A stretch of 64,000 nt of DNA from positions 186,001 through 250,000 of the forward strand of contig JAKQNP010000002.1 in NCBI GenBank assembly GCA_029565675.1. Reading direction: 5' to 3'. This document shows, in pieces, positions 2-44,304 of the stretch (its first letter is position 1; the number at the start of each line of letters is the position of its first letter). Source of the stretch: a bacterium. GTDB taxonomy: Bacteria; Zhuqueibacterota; Zhuqueibacteria; Residuimicrobiales; Oceaniaggregativiventaceae. The notes beneath the pieces were generated by a model. That model was not told the DNA's origin. It was given only the letters and a program-made list of their open reading frames with translations, and did not search any database. The position numbers were made by a program, and so were the translations under genes.

Positions 2-3000
2 CTGATCGCGGCGAATTATACGCAAACTTTCGACAACTGGTTTAAAGGACGGCCGCGCTGGTTCAGCGATCTTTCCTGGCAAACTGAAATCGCCGGCATA
101 GATGTTCACGCGGGTTCACAGGGGATCGCGATCAGCGATTACAACGATGATGGTTGGCCGGATATCTATATCAGCCGCATTGCATCTCTATCTCCTGATG
201 AGCGTGAGCTCTCCTACATCAACCAGGCAGGATCTTTCTTCATAGAGGATGCAAAAAACCGCCAGATCGATGATCCAGGCCAGAGCCGCGGCTTGCTCTG
301 GGTCGACATCGACAATGACGGCGATTGGGATTTGTTCAATGCACAGACCTCAGGCCCCAACCGGCTCTATCGCAACACCGGTGCGGGTCAGTTCACCGAT
401 ATAACGGCGACGGCCGGGATTGTCGATTTGGGAAGTGTGACGACAACCACGGTTTTGGCGTTCGATATCGAGAATGACGGCGACATGGATCTCTATGCCG
501 CCAATTCTCGTGTTCCCAACGAGTTGTATGTCAATCAGGGGAATGTAGTTTTTTCCCGCGAAAATCGCGGTGCCGATGATGTCGTGGAAACAGGCGTTCC
601 CACACTGTCCGCTGCCGCTGCGGATTTCAATCAAGATGGTTTTACCGACATTTATCTGGTCAAACGAGAGGGTGCAAATCGCTTGTATGTTAACCAGGGC
701 GACGGAACCTTTGTCGATCGGGCTGCGGCTGCCGGTGTTGATTTAAAGTTGCAGAGCAATGGCGCGGTTTGGGCCGACATGGACAACGACGGGGATCTCG
801 ATCTGTTGGTCAGCCAAACATCGCTTACTGGCGATCCTGTCCACTTGCGCATCTATCGCAATGAAGGCGATGGCACATTCACCGATCTCAGTGCGCTCAT
901 CCAGATTCCTTTCGATGGCTACTCTGTGCTTGCCGCTGATTTCGACAACGATGGTTGGGTGGATATTCTGGCCACCGATGAACATGATGCAGGCAAATTC
1001 TACCACAACGACAGCAATTGGAAATTCAGCCACTGGGCGGACAGCGGTGCGGAAGTCAACGGCGGCGATGTGCGCGGTGCGGCGGTGGTCGATATTGATC
1101 GGGATGGCGATGTAGATGTGGTGGTGGTGCGCGCCGATGCCTTCAATATACTGTTGCTGAACAATCTCGACAACAACAACCATTTTCTGCAGATCGAAGT
1201 CGACGGTCCAGCCGGCAACCGCGGTGGTTTCGGTACTCGTATCTGGGTCTATCGCAGCGGGGAGCTCGGCAATCCAGCTGCTTTGCTCGGCTATCGCGAA
1301 GTGGTGTCTGCTTCCGGCCATCAGTCACAAAGCTCAGCTGTGCAGCATTATGGGCTGGGCACCCATTCCGCCTGTGATGTGATGGCGCGATTCAGCGACG
1401 GTACCATCGTCATCGAACGGCAAGTCGCTGCCGATCAATTGTTGTTCCTTCAACCCGGTGCGCCGGGCCAGGGCAGCGGCGAACCGGCAGTTTTGCTGAT
1501 GCAATCCGGAAATGGCCAATCCGCAACTGTCGGCAATCTGCTGCCAGATCCAATCGCAGTCCAGGTTCGCGATGTGAAAAACAATCCAGTTCAAGGGGCC
1601 CGGGTCGATTTCACTCTCCAAAGCGGGTCGGCACAAATTCTTGCTCCCACAAGCAGCGGAGAATCAATCGGGTTTCAAACCGAAAGCTCCACCCTCGGAG
1701 GATCGAGTTTATGGGCTTATGACCGCAGTTGTTCGGGCAACGGCATGGTGATGGTTCTTTATGAATCGCCCTCCAGCGGCACTGTCGAGGCCAATATCGA
1801 TTTGGCATCTGCCGGTGGATATTATGTCTGGATGCGCGCCTTGCATATGGGCCGCAGTGGGCTGGTTCTTTTGCAGGTCGACGACGGTGCGGCCTTGACG
1901 GTGCCGATCGAGTCTGCTGGCCAGTGGAATTGGTATCGGGTCCACTCTTCAAACACCCCACACCTTTTTCAGCTCGCTGCCGGCAGACGCAGGTTTCGAC
2001 TCACCTTGCCCGCAGCGGTTTGCGTGGACCGGGTCTTGCTTAGCCAGGATCCGAACTATCTTCCGGTGGGTATCGGCGACGAGGATGCCAATCCACTGCT
2101 TACGGACTCTTTTGGCGTCGCCAGCCGCGCCGTGCGGATGGGAAACACCGCCGGGCCGGTGCAAATCAGCGCTCAGTTGTATCGCAACGGTCTGCCGCTG
2201 AACGGCCAAACCCAGCAGTTTGACCTCGTCGCCCAGCCGGGCGAGCCGATCTCTTTCGCTGTCTCTGGCGATAGACAGATCGGTGAAATTGGCGTGCCTT
2301 TGGCAGAACCCTTTGCCGTCGATGTCTTTGATGTTTTTAACAACCATGTCCCCGCTGTCCCGGTTACTTTTGAACTGGTGTCCGGCGGCGGTACCCTGCA
2401 ACCATCAGGCATGATTTTAACCAATGATCGGGGACATGCGGAAACCGTATTGACTCCTGGTGAGGCAGGCAGTCTACAGCAGGTTCGCGCCACCATTGCC
2501 GGTCTTCCCGGATCCCCTTATCTTTTTACCGCAACTGTACGCGGGGTGGCTTCATCGCTTCACAAGATCTCTGGCGATGGCCAGTCCGATGCGGTGTCTG
2601 TATTGTTGGCCGAGCCCCTGCGCGTGCGTGTGATGGTCGCGGACAATGAACCTGCGCCGTCTTATCCGGTAACTTTTCGCATTGTCTCCGGCGGCGGTTC
2701 TTTACAGAGCAATTTCGTTGCTGTACAACCCGAGTACCAAACTCAAGCGATCGCATCTGACACTTCTCTTACGCTGATCAGTGACAGCGAAGGTTATGTA
2801 CAGATCTACTGGCGGTTGGGTACGAAAGCAGGCACCCAACAGGTCGTGGCGCAGGCTCCCGGGTTGACTGGCAGTCCGATTGAATTTCTTGCCAATGCCC
2901 TGCCGGATCGCGCCAGCCGTATTTTTGCTTTTTCCGGCAACGAGCAGAGCGCGCCGATTATGGAGAATTTGCCTGAACCATTCGTCGTACGTGTGGTCGA

Positions 3001-6000
3001 TGTCTACAACAATCCGATTGCCAATCACCTGGTTTCGTTTACCTCACTCACTGCTGGAGGAATATTTACCGCTACCGGCACCTCGAACCAACAGGTTCGC
3101 ACCGATTCCCTGGGCTATGCCCGCAGCCAATATCGGCTCGGAACGATGATCGGAACCGATACCTACCACGTACAGGCTATCGCGGTCTATTTGTCCACCC
3201 CGCTTTCGGGGTCGCCGGTCGATTTCTATGCCAGCGGAATACCTGGCGTGGCCAGCCTTGCCTACAAACTGTGGACCGAAGGACCAATTGACACCGTTGG
3301 CACCACCTTGAGCGAACCGCTGCGAGTCAAAATTACGGACAGCCAGCAAAATCCAGTTTCCGGATATCCGGTTCTTTTTCAGGTGGTCAACGGTGGGGGC
3401 AAAGTCGATGAACAGAACTCGGTGAGCAAAACGACAGACAGTCAGGGAATCGCGCGAGCGATCTTTCGCCTGGGACCGACAGCGGGTATGCTCAACCACA
3501 CCGTTGAAGCGCGAATTCCCAATTTGACCCCAAGCGTCCTGCAATTTACCGCCTCAGCCTGCGCCGGCTCGCCTTATCGCCTGGAAGAGATCAGCGGCAA
3601 TAAGCAAGTCGGCTCGGTCAACAGCACCTTGTTAAGGCCTTTTGTCGTGCGGATATCCGATTTTTACGGCAATGCAACGGCCAATCATCAGGCAATCTTT
3701 CAGGTAATCAGCCAGGAGGGCACTTTTTCCGGCAGCCGTATGGTTGATGCTTTTTCAAATGAGCTCGGCTTGGCTTCCGCTCACCTGACTCTGGGATCTC
3801 AGGTCGGGGATTCGCTTTATTGGGCTGAAGTGCGGAGTTATTATCGCGGTGCCGAGCTGCAGCAAAGTCCCATCCGATTTGTCGCTTCTGGTTTGTTCGC
3901 CCAACCGGTGCGGCTGGTTTCGATCACCGACGGTTCGTTGATGCTCGGAGCCGCTTTCCAGGAATTGAAGACTCCTTTGCGGGTCAAAGTTGTGGATGCT
4001 GAAAACAAAGGAGTAGCGGGTATTCCGGTCAATTATACCGTAATATCCGGCAACGGTTCTCTCTTGCCCGATCAGCAGACGCAAATTCAGTGTATTACCG
4101 ATGGAGAAGGACTGGCGGAAGCGCGCTGGATTCTCGGTTCATCGACTGAAGAACAAAAAGTGCAAGCAGCAGTCCTTTTCAACGGCAGTCATCTGCAGAA
4201 TTCTCCTTTCACTTTTTCTGCGATTGCCGTTGCCACTCAACCGGCTCGTTTGCTGCAGGTTTCTGGCGATCTGCAGACTGGAATCGTGGGGCAGCTGTTG
4301 GAACACGATTTGGTTGTCAAAGTTGTGGATATGCTTGGCTTGCCGGTCAGCGATCATCCGGTTCGCTTTCAAGTCATCCAAGGTGATGCGGTTTTTCAGT
4401 CTACCAGTGCACCAAGTGCGGTTTATTATACCAGCAAAGAAGGAGAGGCCGGCGCCCGCCTGATTCTGGGAACGGTTGCCGGTCATCAAATACATCGAAT
4501 CAGGGTGACCTCAATCGATACCCAGGGCCAAGATCTTGATGGCTCGCCGCAAGTTTTTGTCTGCAGTGCACTGCCGGCAGCACCCGATTGGCAAAACTCT
4601 CAATTGACTGCAACCTCGCCCATTCCTGCAAACGGAGTGGCGTATGCCGCTCTGAATGTGCGGATCGCCGATTCCTACGACAATCCGATTGCCGATCGAC
4701 TGCTTAAATTCAGTGCGTCACCGGATTTTCTGCAAATCGATCCCGAACAGGGAAAGACCGATTCTTCCGGATCTTTATACGCCCGGGCGGTTTGCACTGT
4801 GCCCGGTGTTTATACGGTTCGCTGTCAAGATTTGGAGAGCGGTGCTTGGATTTCGGCATCTGGGCAAATCGAATTCATCTCTTCCCCGGCAGCGCGGATT
4901 GTCCGCATTTCCGGTCAAGACCAGATCGGCTATCTCTATTCACAGCTGGCGCAACCTCTGCAAGTGCTGATAACCGATATCCAGAACCGCCCGGTCGCCG
5001 GTTTTCCGGTCCATTTCTCTGGTGATTCCAGCCGGGTAAGCTTTTTGACATCTCTGCCCGTGGTCAGCGACGATCAAGGCATTGCCACGACCTGGATTCT
5101 TTGCCGCGATTTGCTCGGTTCTGCCATCATCACAGCACAGGCACCTGGATTGACCGGCCATCCAGTGCTGTTCGACGTCCAAGTCAAAGAACCCCAAAGC
5201 TTTCAAGTGGTCGCACTGACACCGTCGCCGATTGTCGGGTTGGCTGCTCAGGATTCGCTCGTCGATGTCCAGGTGCAGTGCGTGGATGACCAGAACCGGC
5301 CGATTGGTAGCCAAAAGCTCTATTTTACTGTCGAACTGGCGCAAATGGCAACTGTCGATTCCCTTTTCCATCGCACCCGCTATGATGGCAAAACGACAGC
5401 CAGTCTGCGTTTCGGCAATCAGAGTGGGCAGACCCAGCTGCGCATCGCTGACAGCGAGGGCAAGGTCAAACTCACCTTCGATATTGTGGTCAAACCTTCT
5501 ACAGCGGGCAAGATACAGGCCGATTCTGGCGATCAACAGCAAGGAATCGTCGGCAAACAGCTCGCGCGTTCTCTGGTGGTTCGGGTTGCCGACACCTTCG
5601 GCAATGCGGTTCAGGGCGTCCGGGTGACCTTTGCGGTGGCCGAAGGTGATGGCCACCTGATCGGTGATTCAGTCAAGGACACCGATAGCGATGGTCGGGC
5701 CGCCATCGAATACCAGCTTGGCACGCGCAGCGGCGAACAAGTTATCGAAGCTACCACCGATTTGCTGCCGGGTGAAAAAGCCGTATTCCGCTGTCAGGCG
5801 CTTCCCGACCAACCATGGATCTTGATTCATGCCGGGGGGCAACAACAGACCGGTATCGCCAAACATCTCCTCAGCCAAAAGATAGCGGTCAGAGTGAATG
5901 ACCGTTATAGCAATGGTGTGCCGGGTACCCCGGTCTTCTTTCGCAGCAATGAGTCTGATGATCGCTTGTTGCCGTCGGAGATTGCGATTACCGACAGCAC

Positions 6001-7240
6001 AGGTGTTGCCCGAGTTGCCTGGATACTCGGAAGCCGTCCGGGTCTGCAAAGTCTGGCGGCCGTCCGCGATGGACTGCAGAATTCTCCGCTGCAATTCATC
6101 GCCGTTGTCTTGCCGAACAACCCGCCGACAATATCAGCTCCGGATAGTGTCAGGGTGCGCGAGACCGAACCTTTGGTGATAGAAATCGAATTGCTCGACC
6201 AGGAACAGGATCCAATCGTGTTGCAGGCCGCCGATTTGCCTACGGGCGCCCATTTTGATTCGACAGTGATAACCTGGGTCCCCGACTATGGGCAGGCAGG
6301 TTTCTACGATGTGTGGTTGACCGCAGTCGACAGCACCGGCGCCACTTCGCGGAAAAATATTTCTATCAAAGTGGAAAGGGGCAACCGCAAGCCGAAAATA
6401 ATCGAAGAGTTGACCATGCCGACGGAACGCAACCTCGGTACAGTCAAACAACTGGGAAATGTAGAATTCAGGGTAGCCGCTTTCGATCCCGACGGCGATC
6501 CGCTGGCTATCGTCTGGACAGTCAACGATCAGATTGCCGGCTCTTCAACATCTTTTTATTTTCAGGGCCAGTTGTATCCCCCAGGTGATATTCAAGTGCA
6601 AGCGCTCGTTTTTGACCCCTATGACACCACGCGGGTGACCTGGTCGTTTCAGCTGATTACCCCGGTTGACCTCGAAACTTTTTGCGGCGAGAGCGTGCCG
6701 TTCAATGGAATTCAATTGACCTGGAAAGTCCGGGCAGGAAAACAACCCCGCGGTTTTTTTGTGCTCAGGGCCGCACAGGAGAACGGCACTTATGAACGGA
6801 TCAGCGGTTTGATACCGAGCAACACGACAGGGGATTATCGCTTCTTCGATGACACCATTGTAGACGAACCGCTGCAGGTATGGCATTATCGCTTGCAGGA
6901 TGTGCAGTTTTCCGGCGAAATCGGTGAACACGCAGCGATCGCGGTGTCTCCCGTTGTGCCGACCGAGTTCTGCCTCTATCCAAACCACCCCAATCCCTTC
7001 AATCCGGAAACGTCGATTCGTTTCCAGCTGTCAGAATCCGCTCCGGTGCGTTTGACAATCATCGATCTCATGGGCCGGCATGTCGCTACCCTGGTCGACG
7101 GCCCCTTTGCAGCCGGGTTTTATCGCCGGAGCTGGAACGGCTCTACCGATGCCGGGGATCCTGCTGCATCGGGTATCTATTTTGCGATGCTCATTTCCGG
7201 TCAGAAACGCGCCAGCCAAAAACTCATCCTGTTGCGCTAA
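2..7240 (+). CDS. Giant exported FG-GAP / Ig-like repeat protein with C-terminal FlgD-type sorting domain (5' partial)
   Basis: The frame is open from base 2 with no stop, so the true start lies left of the window; about 2,412 residues are visible. In order: at least seven FG-GAP/VCBS loops with acidic DxDxDGxxDL calcium-type motifs (to about 1150); an ASPIC/UnbV-like segment (about 1150-1450); thirteen Big_1-like Ig modules of about 100 residues, many beginning with SG(N/D)xQ and carrying a D..NPV.G.PV.F core (about 1490-6110); two further Ig-like domains; a fibronectin-like stretch; and a terminal domain with YPNHPNPFNPETSI, LIDLMGRHVATLV-like and SGIYFAML motifs typical of FlgD-like/T9SS type A tails. 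A carbohydrate-binding-like domain (about 1680-2080) interrupts the first Ig module. It is probably cell-surface or secreted; ligand unknown. Domain calls come from motif recognition and module boundaries are approximate. Confidence 0.9.
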   Translation: MIAANYTQTFDNWFKGRPRWFSDLSWQTEIAGIDVHAGSQGIAISDYNDDGWPDIYISRIASLSPDERELSYINQAGSFFIEDAKNRQIDDPGQSRGLLWVDIDNDGDWDLFNAQTSGPNRLYRNTGAGQFTDITATAGIVDLGSVTTTTVLAFDIENDGDMDLYAANSRVPNELYVNQGNVVFSRENRGADDVVETGVPTLSAAAADFNQDGFTDIYLVKREGANRLYVNQGDGTFVDRAAAAGVDLKLQSNGAVWADMDNDGDLDLLVSQTSLTGDPVHLRIYRNEGDGTFTDLSALIQIPFDGYSVLAADFDNDGWVDILATDEHDAGKFYHNDSNWKFSHWADSGAEVNGGDVRGAAVVDIDRDGDVDVVVVRADAFNILLLNNLDNNNHFLQIEVDGPAGNRGGFGTRIWVYRSGELGNPAALLGYREVVSASGHQSQSSAVQHYGLGTHSACDVMARFSDGTIVIERQVAADQLLFLQPGAPGQGSGEPAVLLMQSGNGQSATVGNLLPDPIAVQVRDVKNNPVQGARVDFTLQSGSAQILAPTSSGESIGFQTESSTLGGSSLWAYDRSCSGNGMVMVLYESPSSGTVEANIDLASAGGYYVWMRALHMGRSGLVLLQVDDGAALTVPIESAGQWNWYRVHSSNTPHLFQLAAGRRRFRLTLPAAVCVDRVLLSQDPNYLPVGIGDEDANPLLTDSFGVASRAVRMGNTAGPVQISAQLYRNGLPLNGQTQQFDLVAQPGEPISFAVSGDRQIGEIGVPLAEPFAVDVFDVFNNHVPAVPVTFELVSGGGTLQPSGMILTNDRGHAETVLTPGEAGSLQQVRATIAGLPGSPYLFTATVRGVASSLHKISGDGQSDAVSVLLAEPLRVRVMVADNEPAPSYPVTFRIVSGGGSLQSNFVAVQPEYQTQAIASDTSLTLISDSEGYVQIYWRLGTKAGTQQVVAQAPGLTGSPIEFLANALPDRASRIFAFSGNEQSAPIMENLPEPFVVRVVDVYNNPIANHLVSFTSLTAGGIFTATGTSNQQVRTDSLGYARSQYRLGTMIGTDTYHVQAIAVYLSTPLSGSPVDFYASGIPGVASLAYKLWTEGPIDTVGTTLSEPLRVKITDSQQNPVSGYPVLFQVVNGGGKVDEQNSVSKTTDSQGIARAIFRLGPTAGMLNHTVEARIPNLTPSVLQFTASACAGSPYRLEEISGNKQVGSVNSTLLRPFVVRISDFYGNATANHQAIFQVISQEGTFSGSRMVDAFSNELGLASAHLTLGSQVGDSLYWAEVRSYYRGAELQQSPIRFVASGLFAQPVRLVSITDGSLMLGAAFQELKTPLRVKVVDAENKGVAGIPVNYTVISGNGSLLPDQQTQIQCITDGEGLAEARWILGSSTEEQKVQAAVLFNGSHLQNSPFTFSAIAVATQPARLLQVSGDLQTGIVGQLLEHDLVVKVVDMLGLPVSDHPVRFQVIQGDAVFQSTSAPSAVYYTSKEGEAGARLILGTVAGHQIHRIRVTSIDTQGQDLDGSPQVFVCSALPAAPDWQNSQLTATSPIPANGVAYAALNVRIADSYDNPIADRLLKFSASPDFLQIDPEQGKTDSSGSLYARAVCTVPGVYTVRCQDLESGAWISASGQIEFISSPAARIVRISGQDQIGYLYSQLAQPLQVLITDIQNRPVAGFPVHFSGDSSRVSFLTSLPVVSDDQGIATTWILCRDLLGSAIITAQAPGLTGHPVLFDVQVKEPQSFQVVALTPSPIVGLAAQDSLVDVQVQCVDDQNRPIGSQKLYFTVELAQMATVDSLFHRTRYDGKTTASLRFGNQSGQTQLRIADSEGKVKLTFDIVVKPSTAGKIQADSGDQQQGIVGKQLARSLVVRVADTFGNAVQGVRVTFAVAEGDGHLIGDSVKDTDSDGRAAIEYQLGTRSGEQVIEATTDLLPGEKAVFRCQALPDQPWILIHAGGQQQTGIAKHLLSQKIAVRVNDRYSNGVPGTPVFFRSNESDDRLLPSEIAITDSTGVARVAWILGSRPGLQSLAAVRDGLQNSPLQFIAVVLPNNPPTISAPDSVRVRETEPLVIEIELLDQEQDPIVLQAADLPTGAHFDSTVITWVPDYGQAGFYDVWLTAVDSTGATSRKNISIKVERGNRKPKIIEELTMPTERNLGTVKQLGNVEFRVAAFDPDGDPLAIVWTVNDQIAGSSTSFYFQGQLYPPGDIQVQALVFDPYDTTRVTWSFQLITPVDLETFCGESVPFNGIQLTWKVRAGKQPRGFFVLRAAQENGTYERISGLIPSNTTGDYRFFDDTIVDEPLQVWHYRLQDVQFSGEIGEHAAIAVSPVVPTEFCLYPNHPNPFNPETSIRFQLSESAPVRLTIIDLMGRHVATLVDGPFAAGFYRRSWNGSTDAGDPAASGIYFAMLISGQKRASQKLILLR

Positions 7241-37794: not shown

Positions 37795-37969
37795 GCGTAG
37801 ATATTCCAATTTCCTCTGACCACAAATCGGAGCAGATCGGCTGCTGACAGAGCAATTCGCCTGCCACCACCCGCTGTCGCAATCGGCTGTTGCGCTGGCC
37901 GTCGTTTAACCAGAAAATCGCGATCTGCGCACCTGTCTGCAGGGCTTGCCTTTTTTTGCAGGAACAATT

Positions 37970-37998
37970 TTGCCGTTGATCGGTTTTTTGCTTATATT
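37970..37998 (+). promoter_or_regulatory. Sigma-70-type promoter for secA
   Basis: TTGCCG at 37970-37975, a 17-bp spacer and TATATT at 37993-37998, about 65 bp before the secA ATG. The 270-bp gap after nusB holds no other feature I can support. Confidence 0.5.
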
Positions 37999-38064
37999 CT
38001 GGTTCCAGCGGTTCTGTGAATCTGGGAGAAGAATCGCTTCTCTATTCGAAAATGAGGTTTTTTG

Positions 38065-41000
38065 ATGAAAGAAAGAGCAGAAAAGTTTTTTGCCAAACTC
38101 ATGGGCGGTACCAATAACGATCGGTTTCTTCGCAACGCCCAACCGATTGTGGCTGAAATCAATCGCTTCGCTGAACGCTTCCAGGAGCTGACCGACGATG
38201 AAGTGAAAGCAAAAACCCAGGAATTTAAATACCGGCTGCGAATGGGCGAAACGCTCGATGACCTTCTGCCGGAAGCTTTCGCCGCTGTCAAGGAAACCTG
38301 CCGGAGGCTGGGTGGCCGAAGCTGGAAAGTGCGCGGCCAGGATACGATATGGAATATGGTCCCCTATGATGTGCAGCTGATCGGCGCGATTGCCCTGCAC
38401 CAGGGCAAGATCGCCGAAATGGCAACCGGTGAAGGCAAGACCCTGGTCGCGACCATGCCGCTCTATCTCAATGCACTCGCCGGCAAAGGTGTCCATCTGG
38501 TCACCGTCAACGATTATCTGGCGCAGCGCGATTGCGAATGGATGGGAGAGATCTACCAATTTCTCGGTCTGCGCGCCGCCGCTTTGGTCGGCGATCTGCT
38601 CCCCGATGAACGACGGCAGGCCTATAACGCCGATATCACTTATGGCACCAACAACGAGTTCGGTTTCGACTATTTGCGGGACAATATGGCAGTCGATGTG
38701 TGGTCGGTTGTGCAGCGTCCCCTGAACTATGCCATTATCGATGAGGTCGACAGTGTCTTGATCGATGAGGCGCGAACGCCGTTGATCATATCCGGAGCCG
38801 TCGGCGCGCCCCGCAATGTGTACAACGAACTCAGACCGATTGTCGCCAACCTCTATCAACGGCAGGAAGAACTGGTCAATCAGTTGATCACCCAGGGCAA
38901 AGAGCTGGTGGAAAGCCAGCCAGATGAAGCTGGCCTGATGTTGTTGCGCGCTCACCGCGGTGATCCGAAAAATCCGCAATTGCTCGATCTTTTAACCAAA
39001 GAGTTTTCCATCAAACGCCTGATCGAACGCTTGCAGGGGCAGTATGAAGTTGCCAAAACCATGGGTCAAGTCGATAGCGAACTCTATTTTGTGATTGACG
39101 AAAAAAGCAATATCGTCGATATCACTGAAAAAGGCCGGATATTTCTTTCGGGTGGACGTGAACAGGATATCGCCTACAAAATTCAAATCCTGGACGAGTT
39201 GGATCAATCCCTGAGCGAATTGGCTGAAAAGAAAAACAGTACAAACCATTTTCAGCAAGATTCTCTGACCGGCTGGTGCAACGGCCTGACCTTGACCGGA
39301 AAGTGCTATTTGTGTGGGGTCAAAAACGATTTGGTGCCCGCCGACGAAAAAGCAATCGATAACCTGGCCGCACGCCTGGCACAGATTCCCAGCCGAATCG
39401 ATCAGCTCAGTCAAGAAAGACACAGCGACAAATCAACGGCCTGGCACCACTTTTTTGTCTTTGCCAAAAAGATGGACAAGGTTGTCGATGCTTTTTCTGA
39501 AGCAGGTGAGTCATTCATTCGCGAAGGCAGCCAGGACGACTCTTATCAGAGCTGGGCAAAAACACTTTTCGATGTCCTGGCAATGATTTGCGATCAGAGC
39601 AAAGAGCTGTCCGAAAGCCATCCGCGCATCGCTCAGGATCGCCAAAGGCTCATGCTCGAGTCGCTATTTGAACTTTCCAGCCAATCCGGCGCGATCGTCG
39701 GTTTAACCGAAGAAGGTCGGGTGGCACTGATTGCAGCGCGCCATGACGGCGATCTGCGAGTTTTGCCCTATATCCGAATGGTCAGTGAAATTCTGCGCCG
39801 CAAGGAAAGTGGCGGCAACGGCAGCGATACAGATGCCAGCCTGACCCAGCTCGAACGCAAACAGGACTATTTTGAATTTTCCGATAACGGCGCGGTGATC
39901 AGGCATATTACCGAAAAAGGCCGCATTGCTCTGCTGGGCGGCAATCCAGACCTTTATGTGTTGCCGGATCGCACCCTCGTCGAAGAACGCGATCGCACTC
40001 TGCAGAACTTGTATGATCAAACGCTGAACCAAAGCGATTATGATTATTCCGGACGCGTGACAGCTGCTTTGCAGTTGGTCAGGGATATCGATGCGCTGCT
40101 TGCCTCGCCGGCGATTCTGCCGCAGGCCGTGACCCTTTCTCGACAATTCGACAATCTGCAGATGCAAATCTCCGATTGGGGAAAATCGCTGTTAAGCGAT
40201 TTCAGCGATTCTGCACACACCTTGCTGGAGCAGATCGATCATGCGTTGACGTCGCCGTCCAAGGAGCAACAACTTTTCGCTTTCGATGGTCAGGGTCGAC
40301 CAACCGGTTTGGCCAATTCGTTTCTCGATCAGCTGCTCGGTTGGCCTTTTGCAAAGGTGAAAGCCGAAGTCGACCGCTGGCAGGCCGAGCACGGTGGTGG
40401 CGACAGATCAGAATTGGTGCGACGCATTGAACTGGATCGCGCACTGGAAAAGGCCCTGGGAGCAACCGCCTCCTCGGGCGATAGCGTCAGCGTCAGGTAT
40501 GAAACCTTGCTGCACACGCAGCAACAGCTGGGCGATTTGTTCGATGCGCTCAATAAAAATGAACTGGCTCTGAATGAAAAGCGGCGTTTTTTGCAGCGGA
40601 TTTTTATTGCCGATGACAGCAATGCCGGGGTAGCTGTTGCCGCCGACGGGTCGCTGCGGATCAATGGCATTTCCACTGCGGGTTACCGCAGGCTGGTGGG
40701 AGATCGTCACAACCGCGTTTCGGTCGCTGAACGATTTTTCCAGCTGGTGCAGGACCCTGATATTGAACTCGATGCGCTTTTTGTCCTCGACGAACAGGGC
40801 GAACCTTTGCGCTTCAATCCTGCTGCCCGCGCTGCCCTGATCGATGACTTGCCGTTTTTTGACTATGAACAGGAATATCTGCAGTTTCGCGATGAAGTGA
40901 TCAAACTGATGAGCAAAAAAGTCCAGAATCGCAGTGAACTGGAAGCTCTGTTGCCCCGCGATCGCTCGCACCTGCAAAGCAAAGGCTATTTGTTCGATGA

Positions 41001-44000
41001 TCGAGAAGTGGTCGAGCTGGTTGAAAAATGCCATGCACCTCGGTATGTGCTGAACAACGATGAGATCGAATTCTGGTTCCGCAGGCATTTTAATCGCAAA
41101 CCGCGCCGGGTTTTGGATGCCCAGCACGATCGCTATTGGCGCGAGTACAACGAAATTGAAGAGCGTATTCAAAACATTTCTCAACTTCTCAAAGCCTATA
41201 CGCTGTTTCATCGCGACGTTGATTATGTGGTTAAAACCCTCGAAGAAAGCGATATGCGGGGTCGGGGACGTTTTACGCCCGGGCAAAAAGCGGTCGTGAT
41301 CGTCGATCAATTCACCGGCCGGCAGATGCCTGGCCGACGGTTCAGCGATGGTTTGCACGAAGCCCTGGAGGCCAAGGAAGGGGTGCAGGTTCAAGCAGAG
41401 AGCCAAACCCTGGCCACCATCACCTTGCAGAATTTTTTCCGTTTATACAAGAAACTCGCCGGTATGACCGGAACCGCTGAGACCGAAGCCCAGGAATTTT
41501 TCGGCACTTATAAAATGGAAGTGGTGGTGATTCCGACCAACCGTACGGTTATCCGCATCGACCATAACGACGTTATTTTCCGCACCAAGCGCGAGAAATA
41601 CGAAGCTTTGTTGGATGAAGCGCTGCAGATGCATGAAGACGGCCGCCCGGTGTTGATCGGTACAGTCTCTGTCGATGTTTCCCAGCGCCTCAGCGAAATG
41701 TTGACGCGCCGGGGTATCCCGGTGGCGAATTGGCTCAAGAAAGGCGATGTCAGCAAAGAGGTGGAATCGGGACGTTTCCATACTGTCCTGAATGCCAAAT
41801 ACCACAAACAAGAGGCCGAAATTGTCAGCAAAGCCGGTCTTGCCGGTGCGATCACCATCGCCACCAACATGGCCGGCCGTGGTACGGACATCAAATTGCC
41901 GCCCGAGGTGATCGGCCGGGGCGGATTGCACATCATCGGTTCAGAAAAACATGAGGCGAGGCGCATCGACAGACAGCTGCGCGGCCGCAGCGGCCGGCAG
42001 GGCGACCCCGGTTCATCCCGTTTCTATCTTTCCCTCGAAGATGATCTGATGCGCTTGTTCGGCGGCGACCGCATCACCAACATCATGAGCCGCATGGGAG
42101 GGGCGGAACAAGGAGAACGCATTGAACATCCGCTCATCACCCGCTCGATCGAGCGAGCCCAAAAAAAAGTCGAAGAACGCAATTTCGATATCCGCAAACA
42201 GCTGCTCGAATACGACAACGTTTTAAACGATCAGCGCAAGATTATCTACAAACGGCGGCAGAACCTGCTCGGTTTCGCTCAGCCAGAGGATTTTGTTAGG
42301 TCGAAATCCAAACGTTATTTTAATGAAGAAGATCCGCGCGACAAGTGGCAGCTGGATGAATTGGTGCGAGACCTGGAGGCATTTTTCAATAAAAGTTTCG
42401 ACCTGGATGTTGCTGAACTGGAGTCTCTCAAGCCGCCCCAAATTCGTGAACGCGTCGAGGAATGGGTGTTACAGCAAGTCGAACTTGACCAACACCTGAA
42501 AGAGATGCAGATTCGCCACCGCATTTTGGGGTACACTCCGATCGAGAATATCCTGACTGAACTGGTCCGCATCAAACTGCAGCTGCACAATGCCGGTTCG
42601 GAAGATCCGTCAAAATGGAATTGGGACGGAATCGGCCAGGAAATGGAGAGGATCTTTGCCGTACAGCCGGATTTTCTCGCTGCGGAAAAGAACAACGATG
42701 CAGCGCGATGGCAAAAACGGCTGGGCGAATGGGCAGTCGATGTCTATCGTTCGCGCATGCAAAAAATTGAACAAGCAGCCCATATTCCTTTGTTCGCCGA
42801 TTTGCGGCATGAAGAATTTTTACATGTCTTTTTGCTCGGTTTGATGAATCGATATTTGCGCCTCACGGCAGCCCCGGTTTCCTGGCACGCTGATGAATTT
42901 GTTGCGGTGCTGGAAAGAGTTTTTATGCAGAAACCGCCGGTGTCGGCAGCAGAAATCCGCGATATTCGGCGGGAAAAACTGGAGCAAATTCTGCTGGACT
43001 GGATGCAGAATCTCCAGGCTGCTGGACAGGGCGATGCTCTGCGCCATCGAGTCCTTGGGATTCTGCCGATTCTCTTTTTCGTCGGTTCAACAGTGGAATA
43101 CAGCTTTCGCAAGTACAATGTGCCGGTCGACAATCAAGTGCAGAACCTGACGCCGCAGCAAACCGAGTTTTTGCAGCGCGTTTTCGGCCCGGTTTATTCG
43201 GAATTGCCGAAAGAGGCGCAAACCAACGTTTTTCTCGATGCGGTTTATCAGACCAGCAGCCGCAGCATGATGCAAAAGGTGGTCGATCACCTGAAAGAAT
43301 ACGATGCACTGATGTTGGCATCGGCTTCTACCGAGGAGATGCTGCATGCAGCCGTTTCTTCAGCAGTCAGTTCGGCGGCGGCGCAGGGCTATGAGCAGGG
43401 GGTCAAATTTTTACCACAAATTATCGAGAGCATTCTATTCAAGCGGCCGGCAAAATCCTTGCCGGAAACCGATGATTCTGAACGGGTGGAGACGTTTGGC
43501 GAGGAGATGGTCGCCTGGGCCCTGGCGCATTATGCTGAAATCAACTATCGCGAACTACGGATCGAAGAAGAGCGGCTCAGCAGCGAAATTGTGCGGGATT
43601 CGGTTTTCTCGATGATCGACGATACCCTCTACAACCTTATCTCCCAGGCGCTTGACGATGCCGACACATTGGACCGCAATATGATGTTGCGCCTGCAGTC
43701 GGATTGCCGGCTGATTTTCCGCCAGTCACCGGCCTTGCTGGACGAATCGGATCAAGGGCGCAATCCTGCTGATGTGATGCATGAGTTGTGCGAGTGGGCG
43801 CGTTCGATCTACCAGCGCCGGGTGGAAAGCATCGGCTCGGAACTGGCGACCCGCTATGAGCGTTTTTATGTGTTGGAAAAGATCGACGAGAATTGGCGAC
43901 AGCACTTGGCCGGCGTCGATGAGCTGCGCGAGGGTATCGGCCTGCGGGGTTACGGTCAAAAAGATCCGTTGCTGGAATACAAGAGCGAAGCCTACAAGAT

Positions 44001-44304
44001 GTTTGTGCAGACCATCGAGCGGATCAATCGGGATGTTGTTGCCACGCTCTATAAAGCCTTTGATATGGGATTGGGCGTCGAAGAAGAGCGCATGCAGCAT
44101 CGACAGCCAACACGAACCGAAACCAGCCATTCCGCATTGCAAAGCATGCAAACCATCAGCGCCCCGATTGAGAGCACAGCAAAGTCAGCCGTTCCGCCGA
44201 CTGCCCCCAGAACCGCAGTGAAAACCTCGCGGGTGGGCCGTAATGATGCTTGTCCTTGCGGCAGCGGCAAAAAATACAAACATTGCTGCGGCCGAAATGC
44301 TTAA
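38065..44304 (+). CDS. secA: Preprotein translocase ATPase SecA, about twice normal length
   Basis: The motor that drives preproteins through SecYEG, here 2,079 residues against roughly 800-1,150 in most bacteria. Core motifs are intact: MATGEGKTL (119-127), [35 protein letters not shown] (227-245), [50 protein letters not shown], the [20 protein letters not shown] helix region, and a terminal [14 protein letters not shown] zinc tail. About 650 residues (about 365-1020) are inserted in or next to the preprotein cross-linking domain, with three TEKGR-like elements (Thr354, Thr548, Thr616) and a C-x8-C-x2-C cluster (405-417). A second expansion of roughly 400 residues lies in the C-terminal helical region (about 1405-1930). 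The frame is continuous. The ATG at 38065 follows GAGG. Confidence 0.97.

Follow-up and report, generated by a model that had tools for sequence, protein, structure and literature searches.

A SecA of twice the usual length in one order of KSB1 bacteria, probably enlarged by repeated copying of its own PPXD and wing modules

A 64,000-nucleotide stretch of bacterial DNA (assembly GCA_029565675.1, contig JAKQNP010000002.1, positions 186,001 to 250,000; hereafter the window) encodes a SecA that is about twice as long as usual and carries a long insert in each of two domains, the preprotein cross-linking domain (PPXD) and the helical wing domain. Nearly all bacteria have SecA, an essential protein that varies little in size. 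The enlarged form belongs to one order of the phylum KSB1 (Zhuqueibacterota), and both inserts almost certainly grew in place, by copying of the PPXD and wing modules. The initial annotation, made from the letters of this stretch, had noticed about 650 extra PPXD residues at 39157-41118; they are indeed present (insert columns 39151-41118), and to them we add the wing insert, two small gains of 19 amino acids (aa) in NBD2 and 15 aa in the stem of the PPXD, and the finding that both large inserts derive from repeats.

The genome to which the window belongs is of KSB1 type (4.4 Mb, 64 contigs), and its secA reading frame is unbroken from the ATG at 38065 to 44304. The PPXD, the scaffold with its two-helix finger, the wing and the zinc tail are all found in the product, which is matched by Pfam families PF01043, PF07516 and PF02810, the PPXD and wing being broken up by the inserted arrays. 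PF01043 matches once in the whole genome in profile searches, so that the giant is its only PPXD-bearing SecA. By profile membership the protein is a SecA and not a SecA2: it passes TIGR00963 (892.9 against a cut-off of 800 bits) and NF009538 (958.8 against 814 bits), and fails the SecA2 models TIGR03714 (655.6 against 930 bits) and TIGR04397 (753.7 against 1085 bits). The ATPase motifs are intact, as first described; Walker A, Walker B (DEVDS), GRGTDI and QLRGRxGRQGD are kept in all 17 full-length giants, and 93 of the 97 NBD1 positions that are invariant among sister-order SecAs are identical in the window protein. A normal SecY is encoded in the same genome.

To locate the extra length, the window protein and 16 relatives (together the 17 giants) were aligned with 16 SecAs from sister orders. 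In the window protein the last residue of DITEKGR is 358 (base 39138) and the canonical return segment begins at residue 1036 (base 41170); the distance between the FLS and IQNISQ anchors is 672 residues, against about 47 in the sister orders, a net gain of about 625. Together with the gains of 436 aa in the wing, 19 aa in NBD2 and 15 aa in the stem, and the absence of two inserts present in sister orders (one of 49 aa close to the N terminus, the other of 28 aa in NBD2), this explains how a length of about 1,060 aa was doubled to 2,079 aa. The original suggestion of an enlarged PPXD clamp thus stands in so far as the first insert lies in the PPXD and is itself made of PPXD-derived modules, but the wing is enlarged too and the change is not confined to the PPXD. 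Across the 17 giants insert 1 measures 633-670 aa and insert 2 479-487 aa. The 19-aa insert in NBD2 appears strongly conserved among the aligned giants and might touch one of the arrays.

We slid a window along insert 1 and aligned its profile at each position (hhalign) with that of the PPXD segment in SecAs of sister orders. The best matches recur on one canonical PPXD stretch, the hairpin-helix (h0), and six of the modules (h2-h7) score 15.4-35.5, whereas none of 83 control windows taken elsewhere in the protein exceeds 12.8. The two outermost modules, h1 and h8, are tied to the array through other copies, not through the canonical profile. The modules share the pattern [FY]F-x-x-D...G-[LI]-[TS]-x-x-G-x-x-x-L. 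Insert 1 thus appears to consist of eight degenerate copies of the PPXD hairpin-helix, nine with the original, most of them individually supported. A similar picture emerges for insert 2, where units u1, u2, u3, u4 and u6 score between 21.6 and 58, above the 17.6 reached by the best non-wing control window, and u5 falls below it at 15.8. We read insert 2 as some five additional wing units, bringing the total to six (Table 1).

Structure models point the same way. AlphaFold2, run template-free with 15-18 sequences per alignment, folded residues 1325-2005 into a chain of wing-like helical units (mean local confidence, pLDDT, 85; predicted template-modelling score, pTM, 0.78). In the model of residues 1-1150, eight helix-strand-strand-helix modules lie at h1-h8, with local pLDDT in insert 1 mostly 75-90. 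When both models were compared with the PDB by Foldseek, SecA was the only fold that either matched, although residues 1-1150 match mainly its motor part.

Table 1. Positions of the secA features in the window, with the evidence for each (res, residues; E, E-value; AF2, AlphaFold2 model)
Feature	Position	Strand	Evidence
secA, 2,079 aa, sole PPXD-containing SecA of the genome	38065..44304	+	open reading frame, profile searches
NBD1, first part	38122..38784	+	Walker A 38419-38442, DEVDS 38737-38775
h0, original PPXD beta-hairpin-helix	39082..39150	+
Insert 1 in PPXD, res 363-1018, eight hairpin-helix modules linked by helices	39151..41118	+	alignment columns, profile-profile, AF2
h1, res 393-416	39241..39312	+	AF2 strands 396-398/405-408; matches h0 4e-7, h3 7e-7; not above controls against canonical profile
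h2, res 463-486	39451..39522	+	hhalign E 4e-5, 0/150 shuffles; AF2
h3, res 533-559	39661..39741	+	E 4e-5, 0/150 shuffles; AF2
h4, res 601-634, best-preserved copy	39865..39966	+	E 1e-8, 0/150 shuffles; AF2
h5, res 688-710	40126..40194	+	E 1e-6, 0/150 shuffles; AF2
h6, res 736-758	40270..40338	+	E 0.006, 0/150 shuffles; AF2
h7, res 846-878	40600..40698	+	E 0.004, 0/150 shuffles; AF2
h8, res 905-925	40777..40839	+	matches h6 2e-7, h3 5e-6, 0/100 shuffles; not above controls against canonical profile; AF2
PPXD stem loop, 20 aa against 4-5 in sister orders	41233..41292	+	alignment
Order-specific 19-aa insert in NBD2, res 1220-1238	41722..41778	+	alignment
Insert 2 in helical wing domain, res ~1403-1887	42271..43725	+	alignment; net gain ~436 aa
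Wing unit u1	42292..42519	+	E 8e-9, 0/120 shuffles
Wing unit u2	42538..42780	+	E 2e-10, 0/120 shuffles
Wing unit u3	42817..43044	+	E 1e-5, 0/120 shuffles
Wing unit u4, weaker	43078..43320	+	E 0.002, 0/120 shuffles; matches u2 1e-5
Wing unit u5, weakest	43321..43554	+	E 0.04, 1/120 shuffles (not significant against canonical profile); matches u2 3e-4, u6 5e-4
Wing unit u6	43606..43839	+	E 4e-7, 0/120 shuffles
C-terminal helical scaffold with two-helix finger	43837..44064	+
SEC-C zinc motif at C terminus	44230..44295	+

Presence across the lineage had been named beforehand as a test, and the insert was indeed found in 21 of the 22 genomes from the order, the exception being a 78%-complete metagenome-assembled genome (MAG) without any SecA match. 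It is missing from all 60 genomes sampled elsewhere in the phylum (0/41 in other orders of the class, 0/19 in other classes), a contrast that chance would not produce. SecA lengths fall into two sets with no intermediates, 2,062-2,166 aa in the order and 1,023-1,183 aa elsewhere in the phylum. The giants form one clade (support 94/88) beside the sister orders, and both arrays occur together in 17/17 full-length giants and are confined to this order. Within it the arrangement recJ-ilvE-nusB-secA-smg is kept; since nusB-secA-smg is common to the sister orders as well, we conclude that the housekeeping gene grew in place. In close pairs dN/dS, the ratio of nonsynonymous to synonymous change, is about 0.03 for the core, against about 0.09-0.18 for the inserts. 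These low values and the near-constant insert lengths indicate that the inserts are maintained, although they change at several times the rate of the core. The carriers are KSB1 MAGs from many projects, with a few records labelled Calditrichota or Actinomycetota; one Actinomycetota-labelled MAG (L044) bearing the KSB1-order SecA is probably wrongly labelled.

Other origins for the inserts were considered and rejected. Capture of a foreign domain into the PPXD is contradicted by the insert having no Pfam or PDB family match and by Foldseek returning SecA only. Neither the whole window protein nor any of the 17 inserts has a Pfam match to a Hint/splicing (intein) domain. A viral or horizontally spread insert is likewise rejected, with no hit among 2.9 million viral contigs and just 17 loci, all from the present set, when 84,980 species were scanned with a sequence pattern; an enlarged SecA of unrelated sequence would escape such a scan. 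Nor is there a lineage-wide habit of inserts in housekeeping proteins, as far as the proteins checked are concerned: SecY, RpoB, SecD, SecF and trigger factor all have the usual length in the order.

What might the arrays do? In known SecAs the PPXD leaves the wing and moves over to NBD2 as it clamps substrate, and the signal peptide binds between PPXD and wing (PMC5963308); besides the contacts of the clamp, the arms of SecA also touch SecY loops and lipid (PMC6599042). Given this position of the signal peptide site, the two arrays would lengthen both walls of one groove, and their constant co-occurrence is expected if both arms work as a pair. In our reading an ordinary housekeeping SecA was enlarged in the common ancestor of the order by serial internal duplication; sequence and predicted structure show that the single hairpin-helix of the PPXD bulb became about nine and the single helical-wing unit about six. 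Its ATPase core, zinc tail and two-helix finger remain of the ordinary kind, and the intact motifs, sole copy and conserved synteny suggest that the protein still uses ATP to push preproteins through a normal SecYEG. Most likely the arrays would form a longer cradle that holds the unfolded preprotein through many weak, generic contacts, or a control or lock on the opening between PPXD and wing, acting before and during clamping; the arms would be a built-in holding platform rather than a new catalytic part. We regard one or other of these two roles, a cradle for the preprotein or a lock on PPXD opening, as an evenly balanced proposition; growth in place by copying of PPXD and wing modules is far more certain. 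A bolder reading, that the arrays are a built-in extended cradle which replaces soluble export chaperones and alters the action of the clamp, and hence a second, architecturally distinct design of export motor, is possible but doubtful.

Several observations count against these roles. The inserts share 33-41% identity among the giants while the core shares 76-79%, and they are acidic and not strongly hydrophobic. The model of residues 1-1150 has a pTM of 0.47, with a poor motor core (the alignment is shallow) and no fixed position of the array relative to it. SecB is nearly absent phylum-wide, whatever the size of SecA, and compensation for a missing SecB was rejected on this ground. Furthermore, cargo size was judged from proteins with a type IX secretion system (T9SS) type C-terminal tail, taking the top-scoring among the matches listed, and among these the median is 670 aa in the order and 812 aa in the sister orders. 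As cargo and SecB are alike in both groups, neither large cargo nor a missing chaperone distinguishes the order.

The arrays could instead be docking scaffolds that bind partners (the ribosome, the membrane surface, SecDF, or an outer-membrane or T9SS assembly factor) without touching the substrate, which we consider somewhat unlikely. The inserts are surface appendages on the very arms that in known SecAs touch SecY loops and lipid (PMC6599042), an acidic, variable sequence of conserved length would suit a scaffold, and every sampled genome has dozens of T9SS-tailed proteins. However, the sister orders, with a normal SecA, match in T9SS-tail abundance (118 to at least 150 such proteins per genome in the order, 81 to at least 150 in the sister orders), SecY, SecD/F and trigger factor, and no co-inherited partner turned up, although no systematic search for one was made.

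Constructive neutral growth, in which a single chance amplification of the arms was tolerated and then became structurally locked in without a new function, seems improbable. It would explain why no difference in cargo or partners was found and why the inserts evolve so much faster than the core, but it sits poorly with a copy number and length that are constant over five families, with dN/dS well under 1, and with two separate domains having changed together.

The initial annotation had suggested adaptation to very large or repetitive exported proteins. The window does contain a candidate cargo of this kind, a probably exported 2,315-aa protein at 293-7240 with seven Big_1 immunoglobulin (Ig) domains, FG-GAP repeats and a FlgD/Por_Secre-like tail. 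Nevertheless, T9SS-tailed proteins are neither longer nor commoner in the order than in the sister orders, and the longest among the matches listed (2,732 aa) belongs to a sister order; we therefore find this explanation very hard to sustain. Finally, an assembly chimera, intein or other artefact has next to no chance of being correct, for although secA is split in four assemblies (at contig ends in G001, G015 and G021, by a frameshift in G017), 16 other MAGs carry a full single open reading frame in the same syntenic place, under purifying selection and without an intein domain, and the whole order has the insert, which disposes of the earlier concern that close relatives might have a SecA of normal length. 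In the five-contig assembly G017 (G017:C1:76350-82850, L036) secA and rpoB are both frameshifted, probably through uncorrected long-read errors; as rpoB is affected as well, the break in secA there is probably a sequencing error.

Compared with bacterial SecA in general (TIGR00963 / NF009538; solved structures include 1TF5, 2FSF and 6ITC), the giant shares NBD1, NBD2, PPXD, the scaffold with two-helix finger, wing, zinc tail and motifs, but is twice as long, with about nine PPXD hairpins, about six wing units and longer stem and NBD2 loops. Sister-order KSB1 SecAs are the same syntenic gene with about 65% core identity, but have no arrays and carry their own 49-aa N-terminal and 28-aa NBD2 inserts. 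Thermophile SecAs also have lineage-specific signature insertions, the largest described SecA inserts that we found, but these measure 50 and 76 aa and lie in NBD1 (PMC7023208), whereas those of the giants lie in the PPXD and wing, net about 625 and 436 aa, and derive from SecA's own modules. SecA2 and other secondary SecAs resemble the giant in combining a SecA motor with altered arms, but they are second copies of about 750-860 aa (PMC7503281, PMC4452313), whereas the giant is a sole, longer SecA that falls short of the SecA2 cut-offs. We found no description of such an enlarged SecA in the open-licence literature, in which two genome papers on KSB1/Zhuqueibacterota leave SecA unmentioned.

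How the PPXD and wing handle the signal peptide and the chain is still debated. An entire order with a doubled sole SecA is a natural experiment on the role of these two arms, and a direct comparison of array-bearing and array-less sister SecAs could test it. It also suggests that an essential, otherwise conservative machine tolerates, and apparently keeps, a major rebuild, and that such a motor can grow by internal module duplication, not domain capture.

Two further observations concern secA and its relatives. A 39-codon hydrophobic open reading frame at 37946-38065 overlaps the secA start (TGATG); a role as a SecM-like regulator was rejected, as it is not conserved in relatives. Separately, two order members and several sister-order genomes encode a second, short SecA-like ATPase (L059:6217-8592 and L060:8814-11228; also in G017, G026, G036 and G070). 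No type I secretion genes were seen in the scanned neighbours at the two loci checked. This protein is about 790-856 aa long, lacks most of the wing and sits on a very long branch in the tree.

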